NCBI GenBank assembly: GCA_021811105.1
Contig: JAJZPM010000003.1
Location: 1 to 64,000, forward strand
DNA: 64,000 bases
Reading direction: 5' to 3'
DNA from: Nitrospirota bacterium
GTDB taxonomy: Bacteria > Nitrospirota > Thermodesulfovibrionia > Thermodesulfovibrionales > UBA6898
Shown here: piece after piece, positions 32,078 to 46,987 of the stretch
How the letters are laid out: every line of letters starts with the position of its first letter
Numbering within the stretch: the stretch's first letter is position 1
Translations under genes and position numbers: made by a program
The notes under the pieces: model-generated
What the model was told of the DNA's origin: nothing
The model's database searches: none
What the model saw: the letters and a program-made list of their open reading frames with translations, nothing else

Positions 32078-33847
32078 ATGTTGCGTAATCGATGGAACTT
32101 GCTTCCCCCGCGAGATGATCAGCCGCTGCTAAAATATGTCGTTTTCCGGCTTGAAGACTTTGAAGATATTTCTCTGTCATCGGCAAGAAAAAGATTCCTG
32201 TTATCCACTGCAGGTATTTTGGGTTTTGTAGTGGTCATATCGCTGACGTTGCCTTTGCTCAAAATAGTTTTTCATTCAGATGACATACGTTGGATAAATC
32301 CTTCAACCCACACACTTCTTGAGACTTCCGGCAGTTTGATTTCAATCATTATTGCCATGATATTGTCATGGGAATATCTGGCATCGGGAAAAACCAACGT
32401 CCTTTTTCTTGTCTATGCCTTTTTCGCTATTAGTGTTCTGGACTTCTTCCATGCTTTCTCGGATTATTCTCATAACTTGTTCGTCTGGTATCATTCAGCA
32501 AGTGCCCTAATGGGTGCCCTTTTCTTCTTCTGTTCGATGTTTGTTTTCCATGACGATAGACCCGATTCTGATCATTCAGTATGGATAAGAAGATTCTCGA
32601 TCTTCTCCGGAATTTTCGTAATTCTTCTTTTTACCGTTTTGTTTTCCGCATATCATTCATTTGTTCCTAACGTTCTGTCAATATCATTGCAGCAGCAAAT
32701 TAATGTTTCCATGGCAAAAGGCCGCTTCAGTGCTTCTATCTATGCTGTTAATTATGCCGCTTGCGTGCTTTATGCGCTTTCGGGAATTCTGTTGGTCAGG
32801 GGTTTTCTGAAAACCAATGATGTCATGTACCTAATTTTCGGGACATCGACGCTCCTCTTCTTCATAAGTCAGCTCTTTTTTGCTTTTTCGGAATTATGGA
32901 ACCCCATGTGGTGGTATTGGCATATCGTAAAAGCGGTCCTTTTTTCGGGCCTTCTCCTGGGACTTGCCTACGGATTTACAAAGACCTTTTACAGACTCTA
33001 TGTATCTAGAATGCGGTTGGCGGAGCTGCTCGATAATATTAAGGAAAAGAATTTGGAGATTGAGAAGGCTTACGTGACACTGAAAGAAACACAAAAATAT
33101 CTCAATGAATCTGAAAAGCTTGCTTCCATTGGAAAAATGGCTGCTATGATGGCACATGAAATTAGAAATCCACTGGGCGCGATCGCAAATTCAGTCGGTG
33201 TTCTAAAGAAATATAGCTTACGTCCGGAAGAAAACACCGAAATTCTCAGCCTTGTCGAAGATGAGATGGATCGATTAAACAAACTCACGGAAGATTTCCT
33301 GAGTTTTGCCAAACCCTCTCATCTCAGAAAAAATAAAACGGACCTAAACACTGTTCTTGTTGAAACGCTCTCTCTTTTGAAGACTGAAAAGACAAAATCA
33401 TCCGGGATCATCTTTCAGGAATCATTCGCCCCTGATATTCCTCCTCTCATGCTGGACAGAAATCATATCAAACAGGTTTTCATCAACATCCTAATGAATT
33501 CCCTGCAGTCGATTTCTCAAGATGGAGTGATTACAATTCTGACAAGATACAGGAAAGCAGAAGATGAAGTTGAAATTACTTTTGCCGACACGGGAATAGG
33601 AATGACCGAGGATGAACTTACAAAGGTATTTCAACCTTTTTATACGACAAAGGACAAAGGCCTGGGATTAGGACTCAACATTATTCACAAAATTGTTAAG
33701 GAACATGGAGGATACCTTCTCCTTTCAAGCAGGAAAGGTGAAGGTACAGAAATAAAGTTGAGCTTTCCTGCATGCAGGAAAACTGTTTCTCCGCAGACGC
33801 TTGATAACGTTAGTGAACTATCTGACAACATCCTGATAAAGGACTGA
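32078..33847 (+). CDS. Membrane sensor histidine kinase of a sigma-54 two-component pair
   Basis: The protein has 589 residues. Its N-terminal half holds about eight transmembrane helices with short loops, including the His/Phe/Tyr-rich LDFFHAFSDYSHNLFVWYHSA; this resembles integral-membrane sensor (MASE-like) domains. A coiled stretch, a HisKA box (MMAHEIRNPLGAIANS) and an HATPase domain with DTGIGM and GLGLGLNI follow. The signal is unknown. The regulator gene starts 5 nt after its stop. Codons are visibly AT-richer than in the housekeeping genes. Confidence 0.92.
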   Translation: MLRNRWNLLPPRDDQPLLKYVVFRLEDFEDISLSSARKRFLLSTAGILGFVVVISLTLPLLKIVFHSDDIRWINPSTHTLLETSGSLISIIIAMILSWEYLASGKTNVLFLVYAFFAISVLDFFHAFSDYSHNLFVWYHSASALMGALFFFCSMFVFHDDRPDSDHSVWIRRFSIFSGIFVILLFTVLFSAYHSFVPNVLSISLQQQINVSMAKGRFSASIYAVNYAACVLYALSGILLVRGFLKTNDVMYLIFGTSTLLFFISQLFFAFSELWNPMWWYWHIVKAVLFSGLLLGLAYGFTKTFYRLYVSRMRLAELLDNIKEKNLEIEKAYVTLKETQKYLNESEKLASIGKMAAMMAHEIRNPLGAIANSVGVLKKYSLRPEENTEILSLVEDEMDRLNKLTEDFLSFAKPSHLRKNKTDLNTVLVETLSLLKTEKTKSSGIIFQESFAPDIPPLMLDRNHIKQVFINILMNSLQSISQDGVITILTRYRKAEDEVEITFADTGIGMTEDELTKVFQPFYTTKDKGLGLGLNIIHKIVKEHGGYLLLSSRKGEGTEIKLSFPACRKTVSPQTLDNVSELSDNILIKD

Positions 33848-33851
33848 ACGG

Positions 33852-35207
33852 ATGAAAATACTTGTTCTCGACGACCAAATTGGTATGCGAAGAAGCCTAG
33901 GCATTCTACTGAGAAAAGAGGGTTTTCATACTGACGAGGCTGAGAATGGGAAACAGGCCATTTCATATTTTGAAAAGGGGCCTTACGATCTTGTCATTAC
34001 AGACTTGAAAATGTCTCCGGGAACGGGTTTGGACGTTCTTTATTTCGTGAAAGAGCGGCATCCCAATACCGATGTAATAATCATGACCGGCTATGGCACG
34101 GTAGATTCTGCTGTACTGGCCATGAAGATGGGAGCTTTCGATTACATTTTGAAGCCGTTCAAAAACGAGGAAATACTGCACAGAGTCAGGAAATCAATGA
34201 ATCACCTGGAAACAACAAGAGAGCTGTCTTCGTTGCACAAAAGGGGAACGTCTGAAAACAGCAAGGTTCCCCTTCTAGGTAACAGCACAGCTATCAAAGA
34301 AATCGTAGCCGTCATGCATAAGATTTCGAATCTGGATATATCGATATTGCTCACCGGAGAGACCGGTACGGGGAAGAGCCTTATCGCTAAGACAATCCAC
34401 AGCCTTAGCTCCAGAGCTGATAAGCCATTTATCTCAATTAATTGCGCTTCTGTTCCCGAAAATCTACTCGAAAGCGAACTCTTTGGTCACGTAAAAGGTG
34501 CATTCACCGGCGCACTGCTCGAAAGGAAGGGACTATTCGAGGCTGCAGAAGGAGGTTCAATACTACTCGATGAAATAGGAAGCATGCCTTTTCCAATGCA
34601 GGCAAAACTACTGGATGTTCTTCAGGACCGGGCGATCCGCAGAATAGGCAGTAACAAGAGTAAAGCAATAAATGTAAGAGTTATTACCGCTACTAATACA
34701 GACATTATCAAGGCAATAGACAATGGCTTATTTCGTAATGACCTTTATTATCGGATAAAAGTTGCCCATATCCACGTGCCTCCGCTTCGGGACCATGCCG
34801 AAGATATTCCATCCCTCGGAAACCATTTTCTGGAATCCATCGGAAAAGAATTGAATAAACCTGATTTAGAATTCTCTCCTGAAGCGCTCGAATTCCTTCT
34901 GCACTATAAATTCCCTGGGAACGTGAGAGAGCTCGCCAATGCAATCTCAGGCGCTGCTGCTGTTGCAGTAAGCAATATCATTTCCGTTCAGGATTTGGCG
35001 CTCACTCTCACAAACAGCCTTACAGAAATGCCAACGCCAATCCCTCCAGAGAGAGACCTGCATCCAAATAGTCTTGAAGAATGGGAAAAGGAGCTCATCG
35101 TTGAAAGTCTCAAGAAAAATCCTAGCAATCTCACGAAGGTATGCAGTGAGTTGCGAATCGGCAGGACAACGCTTTGGAGAAAAATGAAAAAATATAATAT
35201 TGAATAA
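33852..35207 (+). CDS. NtrC-family sigma-54-dependent response regulator
   Basis: The protein has 451 residues. It has a receiver domain (about 1-120, Asp51 in LVITDLKMSPGTG), an AAA+ domain with Walker A GETGTGKS, the sigma-54 contact loop GAFTGA, Walker B and DEIGS, and a C-terminal Fis-type helix-turn-helix (LTKVCSELRIGRTTLWRKM). It activates RNA polymerase with sigma-54. The nearest strong sigma-54 promoters are the divergent pair at 45240-45523, with a palindrome between them that is a candidate binding site. It pairs with the kinase just upstream. Confidence 0.95.
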   Translation: MKILVLDDQIGMRRSLGILLRKEGFHTDEAENGKQAISYFEKGPYDLVITDLKMSPGTGLDVLYFVKERHPNTDVIIMTGYGTVDSAVLAMKMGAFDYILKPFKNEEILHRVRKSMNHLETTRELSSLHKRGTSENSKVPLLGNSTAIKEIVAVMHKISNLDISILLTGETGTGKSLIAKTIHSLSSRADKPFISINCASVPENLLESELFGHVKGAFTGALLERKGLFEAAEGGSILLDEIGSMPFPMQAKLLDVLQDRAIRRIGSNKSKAINVRVITATNTDIIKAIDNGLFRNDLYYRIKVAHIHVPPLRDHAEDIPSLGNHFLESIGKELNKPDLEFSPEALEFLLHYKFPGNVRELANAISGAAAVAVSNIISVQDLALTLTNSLTEMPTPIPPERDLHPNSLEEWEKELIVESLKKNPSNLTKVCSELRIGRTTLWRKMKKYNIE

Positions 35208-35706: not shown

Positions 35707-36240
35707 TCACATCCCCTCTCTAAGCACCCAGGTATCTGTCTTGGGAGTTATCCAATAGGAGCTTTCGCCGGAATTACTTCGAAGGACAGGCTCGGAACCA
35801 AAAACAAATCGAATCAGATACTTGAACATCATATTTATATCTCCTTCACTGTTTGTATAAAGTGACGGAATGTTAAGGGGTATGTTCAGAATATATATGA
35901 CCTGCCTACCTTTCTTTGGAAGAAGCACGGTGTTTCCATAGTCTCCGCGATGGGAGGTGCTTAGTTCCTGCCATCGGCCGAGAATTTCTGTCTGGACGTA
36001 AAAAGTTTCCTTGTCCTCTTTCAATACTATGGTTCCGTCTGACCTGTTATATACGGTTATGTCCACTCTGTAATTGTTATTGCCCTGATAAGAGATGTTC
36101 CCGACGGTGACGTTAAGATACGCAAAAGACGGATTCACTGCAAAACAATCGTCGGCGGCCATACTGCCGAGCACTATGGCCGCAAAACAGCCATATCGGA
36201 ACATTCTCTGAAGCAGGGCTATCTTTTTATGGGATTTCAC
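35707..36240 (-). CDS. Exported hypothetical protein
   Basis: The protein has 177 residues. A signal peptide (about 1-34, cleaved near DCFA) precedes a beta-rich domain: AYLNVTVGNISYQGNNNYRVDITVYNRSDG has the look of an immunoglobulin-like fold. There are no cysteines in the mature part. I know no family. It is the last exported gene of the module operon, after the YtkA-like gene. Confidence 0.65.
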   Translation of the reverse strand: MKSHKKIALLQRMFRYGCFAAIVLGSMAADDCFAVNPSFAYLNVTVGNISYQGNNNYRVDITVYNRSDGTIVLKEDKETFYVQTEILGRWQELSTSHRGDYGNTVLLPKKGRQVIYILNIPLNIPSLYTNSEGDINMMFKYLIRFVFGSEPVLRSNSGESSYWITPKTDTWVLREGM

Positions 36241-36321
36241 CCGATCACCGGCACCATATCATATGCCGCTTCAGGAAAAAAATTTCTGCACAACTCACCA
36301 CCAGATACTTTGGGATATCTC

Positions 36322-36735
36322 TCACTTGACATTGACATTAAACACCGCCGTATCCTCACCCTTCTTCCCTTTATTTATCCTGACATATATTTCCCATAGT
36401 CCGGGCATACTGAGGCCGACCCGTTCCACGGAATATTCTCCCTTTCCAACTTCCTTGATGATCGGCAGTGTACTTGTTCCATGTTCGTGTGCCGGCATCC
36501 AGGGGACTATCTCAATATCCAGCTTATCCTTTACTGGTGCCTTCGTCCTGCGGTCCCCGACGAATAGTCTCATGCTATTTTTCCCTACCTTTGCCTGTGC
36601 TCCTGAGAACTCAAGTGAAACAAAATACAGCCCCTGTTCAGTGGCATTTTGCTGCATTGCAAAGCCGGACAAAAAGAGACCCAAGGGTATAAAAAATACT
36701 AAGGGAAGCACGCGTTTAAATATCCGGGTAACCAT
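36322..36735 (-). CDS. YtkA/FixH-like exported protein
   Basis: The protein has 137 residues. A signal peptide or anchor (about 8-27) precedes a small beta-sandwich matching the YtkA-like domain: AQAKVGKNSMRLFVGD, IEIVPWMPAHEHGTSTLP and GLSMPGLWEIYVRI. Members of this fold group with MP-x-HxHG motifs are often linked to copper handling, so the HEH site is a possible metal ligand (inference). It lies between the two paralogous anchored proteins and the exported hypothetical protein. Confidence 0.75.
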   Translation of the reverse strand: MVTRIFKRVLPLVFFIPLGLFLSGFAMQQNATEQGLYFVSLEFSGAQAKVGKNSMRLFVGDRRTKAPVKDKLDIEIVPWMPAHEHGTSTLPIIKEVGKGEYSVERVGLSMPGLWEIYVRINKGKKGEDTAVFNVNVK

Positions 36736-36749
36736 GAGATATCCTCCTT

Positions 36750-37394
36750 TTAATGGGGCGGCATTGGAATCATGACAGGGACCTTATTATCGGCAAAGGT
36801 CACCTGCCGCAGAATATCCTTGTCGGTGATAAAGTAGGGTTTCAGATAAATATACACGTCATTGACCCTCTCGATCACCTCCTCTTCCTTGAACACACTC
36901 TGCGGCACCACGAATATGGAAATGTGAAACCGCACATGCATATAACCGTACATCTGGTAAAAACTGTACTTGAGACCACGCTTTATCGTCACTATTTTAT
37001 GGTAGAGGTGTTGCCCTTTCTCCAGCTTGATGATTTGTTCATGCTCCTTTTTTTCCTTATCGTGAATCGGCACTTCCACCCAGAAAGTCCCGCTTTGTAC
37101 ATATGCACTGACATCCGGATGGGTGGCATATACAGGCTCATCGGCCAGATTGTCTATTTTCAGGACCGCCTCATATTCCCCCGGAGCGCCGTGGACATCC
37201 CACGCATCCCGTATATCGGGGAAAATCATATAGAATGCAAGCTTTTCCAGCCGCTGTTTTTTGGCGTCTCTCTCTCTGATGATGGCATTCTCCTTCTGGC
37301 CTATATAGAAATCCACGAGAAAAAAGACTGCAATTATGCACAGAATCGAGGCGATCGACTTTCTTTTCCTTGTTAAGCCTTGCAAGAGACTCAT
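36750..37394 (-). CDS. Membrane-anchored module protein, paralogue 2
   Basis: The protein has 214 residues: one N-terminal transmembrane helix (about 14-31), a charged helix (KENAIIRERDAKKQRLEKLAF), and a periplasmic beta domain. It shares the layout and the end motif YIYLKPYFITDKDILRQVTFADNKVPVMIPM with its neighbour. By layout it could be a periplasmic adaptor or a subunit of the adjacent FtsX-type transporter. No named family is recognised. Confidence 0.7.
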   Translation of the reverse strand: MSLLQGLTRKRKSIASILCIIAVFFLVDFYIGQKENAIIRERDAKKQRLEKLAFYMIFPDIRDAWDVHGAPGEYEAVLKIDNLADEPVYATHPDVSAYVQSGTFWVEVPIHDKEKKEHEQIIKLEKGQHLYHKIVTIKRGLKYSFYQMYGYMHVRFHISIFVVPQSVFKEEEVIERVNDVYIYLKPYFITDKDILRQVTFADNKVPVMIPMPPH

Positions 37395-37467
37395 ACGAAG
37401 CTCTCCAAATTACCTCTTTCCCTGCATGTTTTTATGCCTCTCATTCGCTCCTCAAACACCCCTCCCG

Positions 37468-38160
37468 TTACTTGTTCCAATTTCTGAATCCCGTTATAGG
37501 CATATAAACCGGGACCTTGGTATCGCCGAAGTCAATCGCCGCCGAGATTTCTTTCTCTGTTATCCAGAAAGGCTTGAGGTAAACATATGTTTCGCTTTTC
37601 CTCTCGAATATCTCCCCTTCCTTGAACCCGCTTTCAGGCAATACCGACATCCTGGCAAGGAACCTGATATGCATATATTTCGGAATAAGATAGCGGTTGT
37701 AAGGTGTCTTTGGATTTATAGTCAGTATTCTTTGGAAGGAATGAGGACCGGTGCCGAGCTTGTACATCTGTTCCTTCTTTTCCGCTTCTGCATCGGTAAC
37801 AGGGACCTCCATCCAGGAAATGGTGCCGACCTGCATAAATGCCCTGACTTCAGGATAGTCTATATACACCGGTTCGTCGCCGATGTTGTCTATTCTGATC
37901 GTCGCTGCGTATTTCCAGTTCTTCCGGATATCTTTGGTTTCCTGGATGTCCCGCACATCGACGGAAAGCATGTAAAAGGCCTCTTTCTCAAGCTTTTTTA
38001 TCCTCTCTTCCCTGGCCCTAATGATCGCCTCCTGTCGTTCGGCCACAAGGTAATCGACCGCCACCGCCAAAAGCACAGTTGCCGCCAATAAGACCACAGC
38101 TTTCCGCCTCAGGAACCGCGGGAGCATCTTTCTCGTATTATTTTTCCCCGCCAGTCCCAT
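37468..38160 (-). CDS. Membrane-anchored module protein, paralogue 1
   Basis: The protein has 230 residues with the same plan as the next gene: transmembrane helix (about 22-38), charged helix (ERQEAIIRAREERIKKLEK), and a beta domain with KYAATIRIDNIGDEPVYIDYPEV and YVYLKPFWITEKEIS...FGDTKVPVYMPI. It starts 3 nt after the ATPase gene, so it is almost certainly co-expressed with the transporter. The two genes probably arose by tandem duplication. Confidence 0.7.
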   Translation of the reverse strand: MGLAGKNNTRKMLPRFLRRKAVVLLAATVLLAVAVDYLVAERQEAIIRAREERIKKLEKEAFYMLSVDVRDIQETKDIRKNWKYAATIRIDNIGDEPVYIDYPEVRAFMQVGTISWMEVPVTDAEAEKKEQMYKLGTGPHSFQRILTINPKTPYNRYLIPKYMHIRFLARMSVLPESGFKEGEIFERKSETYVYLKPFWITEKEISAAIDFGDTKVPVYMPITGFRNWNK

Positions 38161-38163
38161 GTA

Positions 38164-38892
38164 TTACACCTTGCATGGAGGACACGCTATGGCTTCATCT
38201 TTCAGGAATACCCCATCTTTCAGGTGCACAATACGGTCGGCCCTGTTCGCTATTTCAAGATCATGCGTAGACAAGACGATAGCGATATCCTTTTCCTTCG
38301 AGAGCTTACGGAATGTCTCGATCACGAACAAGCGGTTATCCCTGTCAAGGTTTGCCGTAGGCTCGTCTGCCAGGATCATCGCAGGATGTGTTATAAGAGC
38401 CCGCGCAATCGCGACTCTCTGTATTTCACCGCCACTCAGCTGACTCGGCATATGGTAAAGCCGATGTCCTAATCCGAGCGACTTGATAATCTCTATCCCT
38501 TCATTCCTTATATTCCCGTTTCGATTCTTCGGTTTGAAGAAATTAAAGGGCAACAGGGTATTCTCTAATACGTTCAGCATCCGGAGAGGTTTTGCGTCCT
38601 GAAAGATAAAACTGAATTTTTCTCTCCGGAAATGAACAAGCTCTTCTTCCGATAGCGTGTCTATCCTGGTACCTTCAAGGATAACTTCTCCCTTGCTCGG
38701 GCGGTCCAGTGAACCGATGATGTTTAATAAAGTCGTCTTGCCGGAACCGCTTGGGCCAACAAGGGCAACCAACTCTCGCTTGTTGATCGTTAAGGAGACA
38801 TGCTCAAGCGCGGTCACCTCACCATAAGATAAGTTGAAAGTCTTGTTGACATTCTTCAACTCCAAAAAAGCGGTGCCATTGCTATTGTCCAT
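38164..38892 (-). CDS. ABC transporter ATPase (LolD/MacB type), A
   Basis: The protein has 242 residues with Walker A GPSGSGKTTLL, signature LSGGEIQRVAIARAL, Walker B MILADEPTANLD and the switch His in LSTHD. It belongs to the group that powers FtsX/MacB mechanotransmission transporters rather than classic importers. I chose the ATG at 38892, which has GGGAGG at 7 nt and lies 2 nt after the permease stop. Confidence 0.93.
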   Translation of the reverse strand: MDNSNGTAFLELKNVNKTFNLSYGEVTALEHVSLTINKRELVALVGPSGSGKTTLLNIIGSLDRPSKGEVILEGTRIDTLSEEELVHFRREKFSFIFQDAKPLRMLNVLENTLLPFNFFKPKNRNGNIRNEGIEIIKSLGLGHRLYHMPSQLSGGEIQRVAIARALITHPAMILADEPTANLDRDNRLFVIETFRKLSKEKDIAIVLSTHDLEIANRADRIVHLKDGVFLKDEAIACPPCKV

Positions 38893-38894
38893 AA

Positions 38895-40085
38895 TCATCC
38901 CTCCCATTGTGTTCTGAAACTTTCCGTGATTTTTATTCTGGACAACCGGTATATAGGATAAGAACTGGCTGCAAAACTGCAGAAAACACCAACAAGCAAG
39001 GCCACCAGGACATAGAGGAGGTTAACTCTTACTCCAGTCCCGAGTTTAAGGAGAAAGGAATCCAGCAGATACGTCATAAACAGGCCCAGGGGATATCCGA
39101 TCATCCCGCCAATGAGTCCGATGGTCAGGTATTCGGAGAGAAATATGGTCAGAAGTTGCGACCTAGATGCGCCCACGGACTTCAGCAAACCAATTTCCTT
39201 TACCCGGGAATAGAGTACACTCGTCATTATATTAAAGATTGAGAATATACTCACCGCTACGGTTGCCACAACAATGGCCAGCAGGAATTTAAGCGTTTTT
39301 TTCAGCAGCGTGTATTTCATTGTGCTGAACTGCTGGGGTGAAAGCGCGGTGATGTTCGGGATATTTCTGTTGATATCCTCCACCGCTGCCTGGAGTAATT
39401 TCTTGTCTTTATCGAGGGAAACATTCTGGATGTTGATAACGGACACGAAACCGGTTTTATCAAAGAGTTTTTGCACTTCGGCAAAAGGCGCAAAGACCAT
39501 GTAATCCTCGGAAGAGTTATAGTTCTGCAAAATGCCCGCAACCTTAAACTCGGAACCGTTGATCGTGACTGTATCATTTAAAGATATTTTTCGGGAACTC
39601 GCATACGTCCCGCCGAGGACCGCCTCCCTGTCACTTGTCGGCCATCTCCCATCGGTCAGGGTCCATGAGGGCTTTGCCTCCAACTCGGATTTGAAGTCAA
39701 CACCTGCAACGACTGAACTGACTTCATATTTTCCCGCAAGAACTTTCTCATCTTTATAGAAGCGCACTACGGTAATAATCCTGTCCTTAGGGTTGAGGAT
39801 AATTTCGCGTACCCTTTTTTCAATCTCCCTAACCACTCCCTCAGGGATGTATTCCTCGGTGTTTACACCTATCTGATTGATCCTGTCCACGCGAACATTC
39901 TTGGGTTGAACGATCAGGGTGAAACCGAACTTGGACGCCAGGTTCGACAGGGAGCTGTCTGCATTATCGAAGGTCAGCAGTATTGTGCTGAGAATAGCAA
40001 CAGGTATTACGATCGCAACTAACAGATAGAGGCTTTTCCCCTTTCTCCGGAATATATCTTTTATCGCTAAGACGATAAGTTCCAT
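38895..40085 (-). CDS. FtsX/MacB-type permease A
   Basis: The protein has 396 residues: one N-terminal transmembrane helix (about 18-38), a large periplasmic domain (about 40-265), then three helices at the C-terminus with the FtsX domain signature SRVKEIGLLKSVGASRSQLL. It ends in KITESFRTQWEG, nearly the same as permease B, so the two are related. It would couple with ATPase A. Confidence 0.9.
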   Translation of the reverse strand: MELIVLAIKDIFRRKGKSLYLLVAIVIPVAILSTILLTFDNADSSLSNLASKFGFTLIVQPKNVRVDRINQIGVNTEEYIPEGVVREIEKRVREIILNPKDRIITVVRFYKDEKVLAGKYEVSSVVAGVDFKSELEAKPSWTLTDGRWPTSDREAVLGGTYASSRKISLNDTVTINGSEFKVAGILQNYNSSEDYMVFAPFAEVQKLFDKTGFVSVINIQNVSLDKDKKLLQAAVEDINRNIPNITALSPQQFSTMKYTLLKKTLKFLLAIVVATVAVSIFSIFNIMTSVLYSRVKEIGLLKSVGASRSQLLTIFLSEYLTIGLIGGMIGYPLGLFMTYLLDSFLLKLGTGVRVNLLYVLVALLVGVFCSFAASSYPIYRLSRIKITESFRTQWEG

Positions 40086-40086
40086 A

Positions 40087-41505
40087 TCAGCTCTCCCATT
40101 GCGTTCTGAAGGTTTCGGTTATCTTAAGTTTTGACAGTTTATACGCGGGATAGATAATTGCTACCAGGCTGCATACGACCCCCAGGATAAGCGCTCTCGG
40201 AAGAAAATCGGTGGATATCCGGATTACAGCGCCTATGTCAAGGAGAGTATTCAGAATGTATGCCATTCCCAATCCCAGCAAGTATCCGATGATGCCGGCT
40301 GCAAGACCGAGGATGAAATGCTCGTAGATGAAGATCCTGAACAGCTGAGATCTGGATGCGCCGATAGCCTTTAACATGCCTATCTCTCTGATGCGTGCAT
40401 AAAGGGAGCCGGTGACTATATTGAATATGGAGAAGATACCGACGGCGATCGTTGATACGACGACGGCAAGCAGGAATTTGTACAGCATGTTGAAAAAGTC
40501 AAATTGCACCCCGGCAACGTCAAGTTGGGAAACAGCAGTAATTCCGGTTACGTTCTTGTTCAGTTCCACCATTGCGTCGCCGACAGGACAGTTGGGACAC
40601 ATAGCCCGGACGCTCACCAGCGATATAAGCCCCTCTTTGCGAAAAAGGCTCTGAGCAGTACTCAGGGGGATAAATACCATATAGTCATCAGCCGAGTTTG
40701 TTTCTTCCAGGATCCCCCTGACGGTGAATTCAGTTTTATTGATAGCAAGCCTATCACCTAGTTTCAGTCCTCTTGCCTTTGCATAAGCGCCCCCCAGATA
40801 CGCGTCATCCCATCCCTTTAGTATCGGCTTTACCGGCGCGACCTTGTCTTTCTTCTTCTCCTCCTCGGCAATTATTCTGCCGCTGGAATCAACGCCATAA
40901 CTGGTTTTATCTATAACAACGTTGCCGTGGGAGTCTAATTTGTATTGAGTGGAAATATTTGTATTTACATCTTTGATATCAGTGTCTGCCGGCCACTGGC
41001 CACTGGTCAGGTTCCACCAGAATCTCACAAAATATTCTTTGCGTAACTCGATACCGGTAACGATCACTTCCTGGCCGTTTACTTCAGCTTTTTCGAAGAG
41101 CCGCGGCGCCCATGTGGCAGGTTCCAGGACCACACCGGGAACACCCGGATTTGAAACCAATCCGCCTTTTTTCTCCCAACCGGCTTTTATGGCCTCGTCA
41201 TAGTTCTTCATTATTTCCGGTACTGCAGCTTCGGGGATATAGGAACCGAGAACGACTTCTGATGTGGTTAATTTATACTCCTGGCCCTTTCCTCCGGCAT
41301 TGGCGCCCGAAGAACTTGCCGCCGGCCGGACTGTCAGCGTATGACCTGTCTTGGCGATAATTTCCATGATTGCCAGATTCGCCGAATTGCTGACAATCGA
41401 CAGAGAAGTAAGGAGAGCGACGGCTATGACGATAGAAGAGGCGATCAGCATATTTTTCTTGGGTCTTCGCATCAACTCTAAAATGGAAAGTTTAAGGATT
41501 TTCAT
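40087..41505 (-). CDS. FtsX/MacB-type permease B
   Basis: The protein has 472 residues with the same plan as permease A but a longer periplasmic domain, including a Cys pair in MCPNCPVG and a Lys/Glu-rich insertion near residue 210. The FtsX domain reads ARIREIGMLKAIGASRSQLF. The ATG at 41505 overlaps the stop of ATPase B in TAATG. The CxxC in the periplasmic part is unusual and could bind metal or be redox-active. Confidence 0.9.
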   Translation of the reverse strand: MKILKLSILELMRRPKKNMLIASSIVIAVALLTSLSIVSNSANLAIMEIIAKTGHTLTVRPAASSSGANAGGKGQEYKLTTSEVVLGSYIPEAAVPEIMKNYDEAIKAGWEKKGGLVSNPGVPGVVLEPATWAPRLFEKAEVNGQEVIVTGIELRKEYFVRFWWNLTSGQWPADTDIKDVNTNISTQYKLDSHGNVVIDKTSYGVDSSGRIIAEEEKKKDKVAPVKPILKGWDDAYLGGAYAKARGLKLGDRLAINKTEFTVRGILEETNSADDYMVFIPLSTAQSLFRKEGLISLVSVRAMCPNCPVGDAMVELNKNVTGITAVSQLDVAGVQFDFFNMLYKFLLAVVVSTIAVGIFSIFNIVTGSLYARIREIGMLKAIGASRSQLFRIFIYEHFILGLAAGIIGYLLGLGMAYILNTLLDIGAVIRISTDFLPRALILGVVCSLVAIIYPAYKLSKLKITETFRTQWES

Positions 41506-42236
41506 TATTTGCACACTCCATTCATAATGGCCTGCACAGGATCAGCGAGATCCTTATATATGAACCCGTCCTTCATGACAATTGTGGTTTTCGCTTTTTC
41601 CAGCCACGTGAGGCTATGGCTGACAACGATGAGGGTCTTCTTGTAGACATTGTTTATCTGGCAGCATATCTCTATAACTTCCTTCTCTGTTCTGATATCA
41701 AGCTCTCCGGTTGGCTCATCGGCCAGGATGATCTCCGGATCGTTTATAAGCGCCCTTGCTATCGCAACCCTCCTCTGTTCACCACCGGAAAGCTCTGAAG
41801 GGAATGAATTCACCTTGCTTTTCATATCGAGGTCGGTCAATAGGGATATCGCTTTCGACTTCAGCGCATCGGTGTCTTTTTTGCGTGAATTACTGTTGAA
41901 AATTGCCGGCATGACGACATTGTTCAAAACATTGAGTGTCGGCAGCAGACTAAATGATTGAAACATAAAGCCTATTTTCCTGTTCCTGAAATTCGAAAGC
42001 TGGCTGTCATTGAGTTTCCATATGTTCTTTCCTTCGATCAAAACAGTCCCTTCCGTAGGCCTCGTCAGACCTCCGATCGTACTGACAAGGGTCGTTTTGC
42101 CCGAGCCTGAATGTCCCATGAAAACGACAAAGTCGCCTTGCGCTATTTCGAGATCCACCCCCTTTAATGCTTCCACGCGCTGATCGCCTACATGATAGAT
42201 TTTCTTTAATCCGTTCGTCCTGATAAATTCGCTCAT
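41505..42236 (-). CDS. ABC transporter ATPase (LolD/MacB type), B
   Basis: The protein has 243 residues with Walker A GHSGSGKTTLV, signature LSGGEQRRVAIARAL and Walker B EIILADEPTGELD. It starts just after permease C ends and overlaps permease B, so it may serve both. The C-terminus continues past the usual end with KDGFIYKDLADPVQAIMNG. Confidence 0.93.
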   Translation of the reverse strand: MSEFIRTNGLKKIYHVGDQRVEALKGVDLEIAQGDFVVFMGHSGSGKTTLVSTIGGLTRPTEGTVLIEGKNIWKLNDSQLSNFRNRKIGFMFQSFSLLPTLNVLNNVVMPAIFNSNSRKKDTDALKSKAISLLTDLDMKSKVNSFPSELSGGEQRRVAIARALINDPEIILADEPTGELDIRTEKEVIEICCQINNVYKKTLIVVSHSLTWLEKAKTTIVMKDGFIYKDLADPVQAIMNGVCK

Positions 42237-42237
42237 A

Positions 42238-43452
42238 TCATAACCCCTGTTTCATAGTTTCGTGCGGGTCGATTCTTACCGCAACAAGCGCAGGATATGC
42301 CGACCCGCTGATACCCATCAACAGAGCGATAAGTATCGCACCGCCGGCCATCAAACCGATAATTTCAACTGGGGGCAATATAAACGGTATATTGAGGAGT
42401 CTGAGATAAAATACGATCGACCTCTGAAATATCTTCAACAGACCGCCTCCTATCAACATGCCCACGAAGCCGCTCATAACGCTCGTAAGCAGGGCCTCAT
42501 AAATAATGAGCTTGAAGATGTCGGGCCGTGTGGCACCGATCGCCCTGATTATTCCCAGCTCTCTCTTTCGCTCGTTGACCACTGCGGAGTATATGGCATT
42601 GATCATGAGTATGTTCGAAAGGACCAGAACGACGATTAGTGCAATAATGCCGGAAAAGACTGCAACCGTCGTCTGACGGGCCGACGTCGCAATATTTCCG
42701 GTAGTGACGGCCTTGAGCTCCGGGTTTTCCTTTAAAATGGAAAAGGTAATAAAGGGTATCTTTGCTCCGACCTCCAGCTGTACCAATCCACCGGATATCT
42801 TTCCTCTTAATGGTGCAAGTGGCTTGATTGACTTGTCAGACTGTGAATAATCTGACATTTCATAGGCTTTTTGAATATTAAAGAAGATTGCATTATCATA
42901 TAATCCAATCCCTGTTCTTTCGAGCTTTCCCCAGACCGTAAGAGGGATTCCATAGAACTTCACAATATCGCCTATCTCCCACGGTGACATCGCTCCGATG
43001 ATTGCACCGTCAGCAGGAAAGGCACTGTCCGCTTTCTTGTCGACCCAGGGCATGACAGTAAAATCATCGGTAGGATCGAACCCTATCAGAAAGGAATTGC
43101 CCATAACGCAGCATTCACCGGTTGCACTCGTAAGGAAGATCTGTCCTGACACCCTCTTGACTCCCTTTAGTGCACGTATCTTGGCAAGCACTCCCGAGTC
43201 CATATAAAAGGCAGATGGCTCCCCTGTCAGAAGGGCCGATTTCATAGCTACCAGGGAGTCCTTAGGAATTACAAGAAGATCAGCGCCCAACTTCGAGAGT
43301 CCTTCGTCCAGGCTGTGCTGGATCCCTAAAATAAGCAGTGATGACGCGAATAATGCCCCAATGACAATGCTTACACTTATCAGGATTATATAAAACCGTA
43401 AATGCTTCACCTGCAGGTTCTGGTATGCCAGTCTGAACAGAGATATGATCAT
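42238..43452 (-). CDS. FtsX/MacB-type permease C
   Basis: The protein has 404 residues: N-terminal helix (about 20-42), periplasmic domain, and three C-terminal helices with NERKRELGIIRAIGATRPDIFKL. It is more distant from permeases A and B than those are from each other; its end reads IDPHETMKQGL. The start ATG has AGGAGG upstream. It follows the propeller gene after a 111-nt gap holding a hairpin. Confidence 0.9.
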   Translation of the reverse strand: MIISLFRLAYQNLQVKHLRFYIILISVSIVIGALFASSLLILGIQHSLDEGLSKLGADLLVIPKDSLVAMKSALLTGEPSAFYMDSGVLAKIRALKGVKRVSGQIFLTSATGECCVMGNSFLIGFDPTDDFTVMPWVDKKADSAFPADGAIIGAMSPWEIGDIVKFYGIPLTVWGKLERTGIGLYDNAIFFNIQKAYEMSDYSQSDKSIKPLAPLRGKISGGLVQLEVGAKIPFITFSILKENPELKAVTTGNIATSARQTTVAVFSGIIALIVVLVLSNILMINAIYSAVVNERKRELGIIRAIGATRPDIFKLIIYEALLTSVMSGFVGMLIGGGLLKIFQRSIVFYLRLLNIPFILPPVEIIGLMAGGAILIALLMGISGSAYPALVAVRIDPHETMKQGL

Positions 43453-43563: not shown

Positions 43564-45102
43564 TTACGTAGTCGTGCAGCGTGAAATTGCCAGTCCCTTG
43601 ACTGACCTGGGAACGATGCAACTGTCGTGGTGTCCGAAAGGACTCGGGAGAAGACCGTAAAGCTTATCATCCTTCACCCGTACGACGTAGGTTCCGGACT
43701 TTGTCTTCTGGTATCCGCTGTACACCCCGAACAGCCATTTCCCGTCGTCTGTGCACGCTATGGTATGTGTATCTGGCCCGATGTTGATCACCTTGGTGAT
43801 CTTCCAGGTCCGCGTATCAACGGCGCATATGCCGTTCATGCTGGGCGACGGCCACCACAGGGTGACATACAGCTTCTTGCCGTCGGGCGTAAAGCACATA
43901 TGGAACGGATTGGGATACGCGCCTCTCCAGCTCGGATCGCCCACCCCTGCGACTCTTCTCCACTTCGTGGGATCGGAATAATTGCTGGAGTCGAATACAG
44001 CCATAACGTTTTCCCTGGCATTGTTCATGAGCAGGAAGCGGTCTCCGGTGGGATTGAAACCGGCTTGGTGAGCAGGAGTGGGGATGTTCTTGAACGTTGC
44101 TGTCCACTCGCCGTCGCCGACCTTCTTGAAGGGGACCTGAAATCCCTGCGCCGCATGTTTTTCTGATCCCACGCAAATCGCCTTGGGTTCCCACGTCTTT
44201 GTATCAAACACAACTCCGCATCCGATCAGTCTGAGCGCGGCTACCGCGTACTTCTTGTGCTGCGGTTCCCAGGTCAGAGAATCTAGGGCACAGAGGTTCT
44301 TCAGGTGCGGGCCCGGCACCTTCCCCTGCTCGGCAAAAAGTTCTCCTCCGGGAACAAGTTCCCAGTCTACCTTGATGCCGTTTGTGCCCTTCAGGTGATA
44401 GGGCGGTTTCAATTTCTTGATGGTAAGCGTCCCGCCATCAACCCATGCCCGGGCGAGCTCAGAGTTATTGTATTCCCAGTCGAACTTTATTACCGCTTCG
44501 ACTGAAGACGGCTGGGTGCCACGCCCCTTTTTGAATACTGCAAAAATGTCTTTTTGCCCGTCCGCCACCGAAAAGCGCTCGTTGTCCGGCGCGATTGTGA
44601 CATGCACGCCAAGACCGACGCCGGTTGTTTCAGCAACGTCCTCCAGTATATTCATCTTGGTGCCGTCATAATTGATCCGCCAGATATTGAACCCTGGAGC
44701 CGGATCTTTCACCGGAGTCGTGACGCCGTAGATATAGAGATTCTTCCCTCCCTGGGAATCCACCACATATTCGAATTCCTTGTAGGGATCCGGCGAGGCA
44801 AACGCAGCGATATGATGGACAATAGGGGTCTTGTTCCCGGCCCAAATGCTCATATTCAGCCAAGCGAGACAATTACCAGTTGACATATCATATGCGCCTA
44901 CGCCTCCGGCGTATTTCCCCGGGACAAGATGGATATACTTGCCGATCTGCTTGTAGACATCGTCAAACGTCGGATCGCCGAACATGACGGCTTCAGCCGT
45001 GCCCGAAGAACTGATGCGCTTACCAAGACCAAGCTTGCTCATACCGCTTAATGCAGCTCCTGCAACCGCTGCCTTGAATAAATTGCGCCTCGAAATACTC
45101 AT
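43564..45102 (-). CDS. Tat-exported His-rich beta-propeller, NosZ N-domain-like
   Basis: The protein has 512 residues. A twin-arginine signal (SRRNLFKAAVAGAAL) is followed by repeated blade motifs (FTPDGKKLYVT, CTDDGKWLFGV, FNPTGDRFLLMN). Histidines stand at blade starts: H96-H97, H167, H266, H345, H401, H446 and H491-H492. This recalls the propeller of nitrous-oxide reductase, where seven His hold the CuZ centre, but no C-terminal CuA domain is present. A metal site is inferred. The ATG at 45102 has AAGGAGG upstream. It is first in the operon behind a sigma-54 promoter and divergent from tatABC. It could also be a non-metal YVTN-type propeller. Confidence 0.75.
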   Translation of the reverse strand: MSISRRNLFKAAVAGAALSGMSKLGLGKRISSSGTAEAVMFGDPTFDDVYKQIGKYIHLVPGKYAGGVGAYDMSTGNCLAWLNMSIWAGNKTPIVHHIAAFASPDPYKEFEYVVDSQGGKNLYIYGVTTPVKDPAPGFNIWRINYDGTKMNILEDVAETTGVGLGVHVTIAPDNERFSVADGQKDIFAVFKKGRGTQPSSVEAVIKFDWEYNNSELARAWVDGGTLTIKKLKPPYHLKGTNGIKVDWELVPGGELFAEQGKVPGPHLKNLCALDSLTWEPQHKKYAVAALRLIGCGVVFDTKTWEPKAICVGSEKHAAQGFQVPFKKVGDGEWTATFKNIPTPAHQAGFNPTGDRFLLMNNARENVMAVFDSSNYSDPTKWRRVAGVGDPSWRGAYPNPFHMCFTPDGKKLYVTLWWPSPSMNGICAVDTRTWKITKVINIGPDTHTIACTDDGKWLFGVYSGYQKTKSGTYVVRVKDDKLYGLLPSPFGHHDSCIVPRSVKGLAISRCTTT

Positions 45103-45239
45103 CTTTTTACCTCCTTTTTTGTATTGCATTTTATATGGTTCATTCCCGCCCGATGACGTTTGCTGACTAACTCCCTTGCCACCTCCTTTTGTCATTTCTT
45201 ACCGCGTCTTTGCCTTGAGCGATCCATTCATCGCAATCA

Positions 45240-45254
45240 GCAAGCTGGGTGCCA
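45240..45254 (-). promoter_or_regulatory. Sigma-54 promoter of the propeller-transporter operon
   Basis: The minus strand reads TGGCACCCAGCTTGC, a full match to TGGCAC-N5-TTGC with GG and GC ten bases apart. Transcription would begin near 45229, about 127 nt before the propeller start codon. Confidence 0.75.
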
Positions 45255-45320
45255 GGTCGCAACGCTTGTTTTTTTTGCAGGTTTTATGCGGCACTATCGG
45301 AATCAAAGGAGATTTTTTTC

Positions 45321-45360
45321 CATAATGAAACATGAAAATGTTTCATTATGTTCCATTATG
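45321..45360. promoter_or_regulatory. Candidate upstream activating sequence for a sigma-54 activator
   Basis: A perfect inverted repeat has 13-bp arms (CATAATGAAACAT, 45321-45333; ATGTTTCATTATG, 45338-45350) around GAAA. A third half-site TTCCATTATG (45351-45360) directly repeats TTTCATTATG. It lies about 67 bp behind the leftward and 145 bp behind the rightward sigma-54 promoter, normal distances for an enhancer. Confidence 0.65.
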
Positions 45361-45506
45361 GAAAGACAGAAGAGACTTGAAGAGGTTTGATTAAAATAAT
45401 GTTTGATCAACACAAAAGAAACGATTCTCATATATTACAGGACTTACCGCTGCCCCTGGCGTTGCATAAAGCAAAATCTTCAATTAAGCAAAGTTGCGGG
45501 GACTTC

Positions 45507-45523
45507 TGGCACGAAAATGGCTT
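45507..45523 (+). promoter_or_regulatory. Sigma-54 promoter of the tat operon
   Basis: TGGCAC-GAAAA-TGGCTT: GG at 45508-45509 and GC at 45520-45521 have exact spacing; one base differs from TTGC. Transcription would begin near 45533, about 57 nt before tatA. Confidence 0.65.
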
Positions 45524-45589: not shown

Positions 45590-45775
45590 ATGTTTGGTCT
45601 TGGCTTGCAGGAATTAATAATCATTTTAGTGATAATCATGGTTTTGTTTGGAGGGAAGAGATTGCCGGAACTTGCAGAAGGGATGGGAAAAGCGATCAGG
45701 AATTTCAAAAAAGCTTCTCTGGAGGATAACGCCCTTAACGTTACACCCAAAACAAATTCAGATAATGAAAAATAG
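45590..45775 (+). CDS. tatA: Sec-independent translocase protein TatA
   Basis: The protein has 61 residues: N-terminal helix (GLGLQELIIILVIIMVLFGG), the hinge GGKRLPELAEGMGKAIRNFKKA, and an acidic tail. It forms the transport pore of the twin-arginine pathway. The ATG at 45590 has GAGGAGG upstream. It is first of three tat genes facing away from the Tat substrate gene at 45102. Confidence 0.92.
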   Translation: MFGLGLQELIIILVIIMVLFGGKRLPELAEGMGKAIRNFKKASLEDNALNVTPKTNSDNEK

Positions 45776-45907: not shown

Positions 45908-46186
45908 ATGCTCGACATTGGCTTTCAAGAGATAATAATAATTTTTGCTGTTGCCCTTATAGTCATAGGCCCCAAACAACTTCCTGAATTCAGCAAGAAA
46001 CTCGGGAAATGGATTCTGGAGATTAGAAAAGGTGTAAATTTGGCCAAGAGCCAAATAACGGAAGAGATTAACAAAGACATCCAGATTTCCGGGGAAAGGT
46101 CAGGGACTACTGCTCACCCTCTCCGGGAAGATGACGAAAGAGATGACGTCATGAGTGAACACAATGTTGCTGAGGAAAAGACATAA
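45908..46186 (+). CDS. tatB: TatA/TatB-family protein, probably TatB
   Basis: The protein has 92 residues. The N-terminal helix and GPKQLPEFSKKLGKWILEIRKG fit TatB better than TatA, as does the longer amphipathic region. It would form the substrate receptor with TatC. The ATG at 45908 comes after a 132-nt gap from tatA; no strong ribosome site is visible. Its stop is directly followed by the TTG start of tatC. Confidence 0.85.
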   Translation: MLDIGFQEIIIIFAVALIVIGPKQLPEFSKKLGKWILEIRKGVNLAKSQITEEINKDIQISGERSGTTAHPLREDDERDDVMSEHNVAEEKT

Positions 46187-46987
46187 TTGGAAGATACAAA
46201 ACTACCTTTGACAGAACATCTTACGGAACTGCGTAAAAGAATATTAATATCGGTAGTAGTTTTGTTTTTCGCATTTCTCTTTTTTTTTAACTATTCGGAA
46301 GAATTGTTTAAACTTATTACTTTCCCTCTAAACTCAGAAATAAAGCTTGATCTTGCAAATCCCTATATTCGTATAGAGGAAAAAGTCGGCCCCCCGCTGG
46401 TTTTTCTTGCAGTTGCAGAGGCTTTCTGGATACACTTCAAGGTTTCTTTCGTCGCGGCCTTTATTGCCTCGTTGCCGATAATATTTTATCAGTTGTGGAG
46501 TTTTATCGCCCCGGGCCTGCTTGAAAAAGAGAAGAGATATGTTATGCCATTTGTGTTATTTGCCACGCTGCTTTTCCTGGTCGGGTCTCTGTTTTGTTTT
46601 TATGTTGTTCTGCCTTTTTCACTCACTTTTTTGCTGGGATATAAAACAGCCTCTTTAACGCCTATGCTGTCGGTCGAAAAATATATCGATTTCTGTTTGA
46701 AATTCATCCTTGCCTTCGGATTAATTTTCGAACTCCCAGTGGTTATATTGTATTTGACAAGATTCGGAATAGTTTCGCCAAAGACCCTGGCAAAACACAG
46801 AAAATACGCTGTCCTTTTTTCTTTTATTGCAGCCGCCATTCTAACCCCTACGCCTGATGCATTCAATCAGGTACTCATGGCAATTCCTATCATTCTTTTA
46901 TATGAAATCGGCATGCTTTTATCTATAATTATCTACAGAAAAAGAAAAGTGCCTGATGAAAGAGGAAAAGTGCACAAAACCATTTAG
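46187..46987 (+). CDS. tatC: Sec-independent translocase protein TatC
   Basis: The protein has 266 residues and six transmembrane helices. It opens with LPLTEHLTELRKRILIS and contains the conserved FYQLWSFIAPGLLEKEKRYV and F-E-PVVI regions. It recognises the twin-arginine signal. The start is TTG at 46187, just after the tatB stop, with GAGG 11 nt upstream. In this window it could serve the propeller and the formate dehydrogenase. Confidence 0.94.
   Translation: MEDTKLPLTEHLTELRKRILISVVVLFFAFLFFFNYSEELFKLITFPLNSEIKLDLANPYIRIEEKVGPPLVFLAVAEAFWIHFKVSFVAAFIASLPIIFYQLWSFIAPGLLEKEKRYVMPFVLFATLLFLVGSLFCFYVVLPFSLTFLLGYKTASLTPMLSVEKYIDFCLKFILAFGLIFELPVVILYLTRFGIVSPKTLAKHRKYAVLFSFIAAAILTPTPDAFNQVLMAIPIILLYEIGMLLSIIIYRKRKVPDERGKVHKTI

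Follow-up and report, generated by a model that had tools for sequence, protein, structure and literature searches.

The window analysed here is a stretch of 64,000 nucleotides of a Nitrospirota genome (contig JAJZPM010000003.1, positions 1–64,000). It contains, side by side, a two-component regulatory pair, a long minus-strand cluster headed by a homologue of thiocyanate dehydrogenase (TcDH), and a divergent set of tat genes:

32078..33847, plus strand: membrane histidine kinase with a MASE3-like sensor, predicted partner of the activator (Pfam HisKA, HATPase_c, MASE3)
33852..35207, plus strand: NtrC-type sigma-54 activator with receiver, AAA+ and Fis HTH domains, predicted operator-binding protein (Pfam)
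35707..36240, minus strand: last gene of the cluster and kept with it, product probably secreted and assigned to no family
36322..36735, minus strand: YtkA-like protein (Pfam PF13115, E=3.4e-12)
36750..37394, minus strand: envelope protein, paralogue of the 37468..38160 product
37468..38160, minus strand: envelope protein with an N-terminal hydrophobic segment, kept with the cluster, no Pfam family
38164..38907, minus strand: ABC ATPase 2, LolD-like (Pfam; NCBIfam below cut-off)
38895..40085, minus strand: FtsX/MacB-type permease 3 (Pfam)
40087..41514, minus strand: FtsX/MacB-type permease 2 (Pfam)
41505..42236, minus strand: ABC ATPase 1 (Pfam ABC_tran)
42238..43452, minus strand: FtsX/MacB-type permease 1 (Pfam FtsX, MacB_PCD)
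43564..45102, minus strand: TcDH homologue of the propeller copper enzyme family, 512 amino acids, twin-arginine signal peptide
45590..45775, plus strand: tatA (TIGR01411 above cut-off)
45908..46186, plus strand: tatB (TIGR01410 above cut-off)
46187..46987, plus strand: tatC, one of two in the genome (TIGR00945 above cut-off)

The first gene of the minus-strand cluster encodes a protein homologous to TcDH over the whole catalytic domain: residues 46–512 match PDB entry 8q9x (E=1e-171), and the comparison with the Thioalkalivibrio enzyme (5f75) gives E=6e-157. The residues which we take to form the copper site of TcDH (K103, H135, H206, E288, D314, H381, H437, H482 and H528 in 5f75 numbering) align to K63, H96, H167, E248, D274, H345, H401, H446 and H492, and these nine residues are invariant in six homologues. 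The enzyme of the window may oxidise thiocyanate to cyanate. An earlier sequence-only reading of this DNA had placed the start of the gene at 45195, which has been corrected to 45102.

Behind the gene of the TcDH homologue, the cluster encodes three FtsX/MacB-type permeases and two ABC ATPases as well as four envelope proteins, of which one is YtkA-like. The kinase and activator genes approach it from its other end, in convergent orientation. Permease 1 adjoins TcDH in the activator-linked loci that are long enough to show such a neighbour. The YtkA-like protein is kept in the operon of relatives and possibly has a role in copper handling. Plus-strand open reading frames at 36263–38091 were rejected as shadows of conserved minus-strand genes. 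The tat genes form a second set in this genome beside that on another contig, where the other tatC copy is located (G000:C8:34352-35026), which makes dedicated control of the set in the window plausible.

Between the two divergent transcription units, the following elements are found:

45240..45254, minus strand: sigma-54 −24/−12 promoter TGGCACCCAGCTTGC of the TcDH-transporter operon, 10/10 consensus positions, predicted start around 45228
45317..45331, no strand: operator unit 1, TTTCCATAATGAAAC, centre 45324, kept by orthologues
45340..45354, no strand: operator unit 2, GTTTCATTATGTTCC, centre 45347, well matched on the left, overlapping unit 3 on the right
45350..45364, no strand: operator unit 3, GTTCCATTATGGAAA, centre 45357, the best unit
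45507-45521(23), plus strand: sigma-54 −24/−12 promoter TGGCACGAAAATGGC(TT) of tatABC, 9/10 consensus, predicted start around 45533

Both promoters, which the sequence-only reading had described as divergent and outward-facing, were located where it had placed them. Each has the GG at −24 and the GC at −12 at the fixed spacing, in conserved surroundings. Exact matches to TGGCAC-N5-TTGC number seven in the 3.94-Mb genome, the minus-strand promoter among them; the score of this promoter (20.0) is reached by none of 1257 background windows. The genome contains a single sigma-54 gene (PF04552, E=5.7e-62). Equivalents of the minus-strand promoter are present in most orthologues, 84 to 211 bp from the operator. 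For 15 loci, the highest sigma-54-like score within 180 bp past the operator was set against the 1257 background windows: 12 loci fell in the top 4%, nine of them in the top 1.5%. In this comparison L048 and L066 have weak promoters, and no convincing sigma-54 promoter lies in those 180 bp next to the operator units of L044.

Between the promoters lies a perfect inverted repeat, CATAATGAAACAT/ATGTTTCATTATG (45321-45333/45338-45350), with 13-bp arms that are 100% complementary and a 4-nucleotide spacer. In 2000 mononucleotide shuffles of the 252 bp between the promoters the longest perfect arm was 10 bp, so that a repeat of this size is not expected by chance. The sequence-only reading had described this palindrome together with a third half-site. 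The repeat is indeed there, but its arms arise from two 15-bp units arranged back to back, and the palindrome as a unit was rejected, relatives having 15-bp palindromes at varying spacing; the third half-site is likewise present, but as part of a full palindromic unit (unit 3, 12 of 15 positions self-complementary). By this comparison, the predicted working unit is the 15-bp palindrome GTTTCAnnnTGAAAC. The centres of the three units are 10, 23 and 33 bp apart, placing them on similar faces of the helix, and the best pair is formed by units 1 and 3, at a spacing of 33. The region thus has what is expected of an NtrC-type enhancer, at least two palindromic sites in helical register upstream of a promoter, with three units in this case. 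A scan with TTYCATWATGRAA allowing two mismatches was too unspecific and was dropped.

The palindromes are kept upstream of TcDH homologues of the same order with 87, 85, 83, 59 and 55% identity, and orthologous intergenic regions retain both units and promoters. A scan of named genomes yielded 25 loci. Paired units are located upstream of TcDH in 16 further genomes, belonging to Nitrospirota, Betaproteobacteria, Thioalkalivibrio thiocyanoxidans ARh2 and two relatives of the latter; it is the unit GTTTCAnnnTGAAAC that persists, in pairs 20–24 or 32–33 bp apart. As the consensus had been settled after weak matches in some distant loci had been seen, the loci were retested with a matrix trained only on those with a TcDH identity of at least 71%. 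In eight loci more distant than these, the sites upstream of TcDH scored 39.4, 38.3, 35.1, 34.0, 25.6, 20.7, 19.5 and 11.9. A background of 178 windows taken from these eight loci contained one that exceeded 11.9, the best two scoring 20.0 (inside a coding region) and 11.4.

Taken alone, the evidence for the ARh2 operator is weak. It lies in the gap that separates TcDH from copC-copD-tatA, flanked by outward sigma-54-like sequences. In two further genomes of the Thioalkalivibrio family, fetched afterwards, a pair is present at the same position with a score of 13.5, ranks first and second in 16 kb and is again flanked by sigma-54-like sequences, which are found at −125 and −291.

Within the genome of the window, a profile of the pair places the site of the window first, at E=7.7e-4, with the next match at E=1.7, and the search revealed no other convincing copy of the pair; since the profile was built partly from recovered sequences, its E-values are not independent and the rank within each genome is what counts as evidence. 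Among 61 genomes of the order, every match with E<0.01 is upstream of TcDH, and these matches fall in precisely those six genomes that have a close TcDH; weak matches in genomes without TcDH (best E 0.012) were set aside as being at about chance level. In seven more genomes the best match is again the site upstream of TcDH. The half-site TTTCATTATG has 14 exact copies in the genome. The search for it near other sigma-54 promoters, which the sequence-only reading had suggested, was run genome-wide and did not reveal a second target. The sole copy outside the window that lies beside a strong sigma-54 match, on contig C19, was rejected, as it is the ATGAAA gene start of a pilY1-type operon. A strong sigma-54 promoter at L009:10074-10088 precedes genes for a small secreted protein and a 2013-residue PilY1-like protein, an operon that is probably pilus-type.

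The product of 33852–35207 is the sole protein with a Sigma54_activat domain in the window, as had been claimed. A histidine kinase and an NtrC-type activator are encoded in most operator-bearing TcDH clusters; L047 and L067 have no activator on their incomplete loci. A single clade (support 100/99), separate from the other activators of the genome, unites 13 TcDH-linked activators of Nitrospirota and Proteobacteria. Twelve of these 13 share the recognition helix IGRTTLWRKM, that of L044 being ISRTTLWRKM. A helix of this type is in none of the other activators examined from this genome, although unrelated activators in other genomes may also have it. A planctomycete activator encoded beside a TcDH homologue is more distant and falls outside the clade, and the operator is missing from its locus. 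The membrane segment of the kinase is recognisably similar across distant loci, including ARh2 and a betaproteobacterium, as judged by eye and without scoring, which suggests that these kinases may respond to a shared kind of signal.

From the promoters and units, their conservation and their co-occurrence with one activator clade, we infer that the site is a bidirectional sigma-54 enhancer, through which the linked kinase and activator very probably drive both the TcDH-homologue operon and tatABC. The membrane kinase would sense a signal, probably thiocyanate or a condition that accompanies it, and would phosphorylate the activator. Dimers of the latter would bind the palindromic units at 45317–45364, assemble an AAA+ ring and loop to the sigma-54 polymerase at the two outward promoters, turning on the TcDH-homologue, transporter and envelope-protein operon on the left and the extra tatABC genes on the right. 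The earlier proposal, which links the propeller enzyme, the transporters and Tat to one signal, is supported, as operator, TcDH/transporter cluster and activator clade occur together from Nitrospirota to Proteobacteria.

The enhancer might instead serve the TcDH promoter only, the sigma-54-like sequence on the tat side being fortuitous and tatABC being expressed by other means. That sequence is the weaker match, with TGGC in place of TTGC, and adjacent tat genes are missing in many relatives. It is also further away: the sequence-only reading had given enhancer distances of about 67 and 145 bp, of which the 67 bp on the minus side agrees with our measurement, while the plus-side distance is 157 bp from the palindrome and 143 bp from unit 3. 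Nevertheless, a tat-facing promoter is present at a nearly constant distance, −147 to −151 from unit 1, in all three examined genomes with adjoining tat genes, two relatives having the counterparts TGGCATGAAAATAGC and TGGCACGGAAATCGC, and is absent from both examined genomes without them (L043 and L044). L043, with neither tat genes nor divergent promoter, is a natural control. In ARh2, furthermore, genes including tatA in a similar divergent arrangement are induced. We therefore regard control of the TcDH promoter only as unlikely. In L043, a close relative (G023:C204), an apparent selA-type gene start replaces tat upstream of TcDH.

Slightly less likely still is that the units serve as operator for some other protein, such as a TetR-, MarR- or Fur-type repressor, with another activator serving the sigma-54 promoters. 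Palindromes of such size are typical of repressor operators too, the genome encodes about 30 proteins with a Sigma54_activat domain, and the linked activator gene is 10 kb from the site. The units, however, do not overlap the promoters but lie upstream of both at enhancer distance, and their occurrence follows that of the linked activator clade in two phyla. Eleven control TcDH loci, none with an activator of this clade, give matrix scores of no more than 5.5, with one borderline exception (Thioploca, L050, 11.6). A role of the inverted repeat as an RNA hairpin, either a terminator or a riboregulator, is very improbable in spite of its perfect arms and GAAA loop, as it lies upstream of both predicted starts and hence in neither transcript, has neither a G+C-rich stem nor a U tract, and is conserved as DNA half-sites at a spacing that varies between loci.

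According to Berben et al., the TcDH cluster of ARh2 is induced on thiocyanate, with its ABC subunits, copCD and tatA as well as its kinase/sigma-54 regulator pair. They propose that this regulator controls the cluster; neither a promoter nor an operator is given in their text (PMC5744179). Other Thioalkalivibrio have the same arrangement (PMC5328954). In ARh2 and its relatives, as in the window, TcDH is followed by ABC subunits, hypothetical proteins, a histidine kinase and a sigma-54 Fis-family regulator, with tatA in a divergent unit and, as found here, an operator of the same type flanked by outward sigma-54-like sequences. Both papers predict the regulator, and no operator or promoter was found reported in them. 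The two systems differ in that ARh2 has copCD and fccAB, while the divergent unit of the window consists of tatABC alone, and in that the whole genome of the window has no match to cyanate hydratase (PF02560), despite its TcDH homologue. In Thiohalobacter and Guyparkeria a sigma-54 activator gene also adjoins TcDH (PMC6504805), but Cus-type copper genes replace the ABC cluster; the comparison with these two covers their genes. Classical NtrC-type enhancers, for example in Desulfovibrio vulgaris (PMC4641369), likewise have pairs of palindromes separated by about two or three helical turns, some 80–210 bp from −24/−12 promoters and with the activator gene in the same cluster; a search of that paper's text did not reveal the half-site of the TcDH site.

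The site is therefore most likely a classical bidirectional sigma-54 enhancer, newly located, of a regulon whose genes have already been described and whose site has not; no report of a TcDH operator was found in the open-licence literature searched. It would supply the missing cis-element for a regulator so far only proposed for TcDH operons, and the 15-bp motif could be used to predict such regulons in other genomes. It also points to a conserved membrane sensor, with thiocyanate, cyanide and copper as candidate signals, and to the presence in Nitrospirota of a regulated TcDH-type enzyme that has its own export system. The same switch beside the same enzyme in two phyla looks old and specific. 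More tentatively, and with somewhat less than even confidence, the MASE3-like sensor, NtrC-type activator, operator, sigma-54 promoters and TcDH cluster may be a self-contained thiocyanate-response module, retained in one piece or transferred as such from one phylum to another, membrane sensor segment included, which in Thermodesulfovibrionales, a lineage not known for thiocyanate oxidation, would command a copper TcDH and a dedicated Tat system.

Some further observations concern distant loci. TcDH is considered a Tat substrate, yet the signal peptides of the more distant homologues in L029/L065 and L030/L052 (L029:1441-2931 and L030:2970-1498, 55–59% identity) are without a twin-arginine motif; the link to Tat is thus lineage-specific. 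Still more distant homologues (38–45%) from Melainabacteria/Obscuribacterales and other phyla (L055–L063) mostly have one permease and one ATPase, and neither the kinase/activator pair nor the operator. The background match scoring 11.4 is in the ARh2 cluster, about 400 bp from the full-consensus sigma-54 sequence TGGCACGCTCATTGCA on the side of fccAB, genes published as thiocyanate-induced in ARh2. This second operator-like pair occupies L054:6815-6850 and the sigma-54 sequence 6416-6401, and in L122 and L123 a similar second pair is located 3.3 kb upstream of TcDH, near another sigma-54-like sequence.
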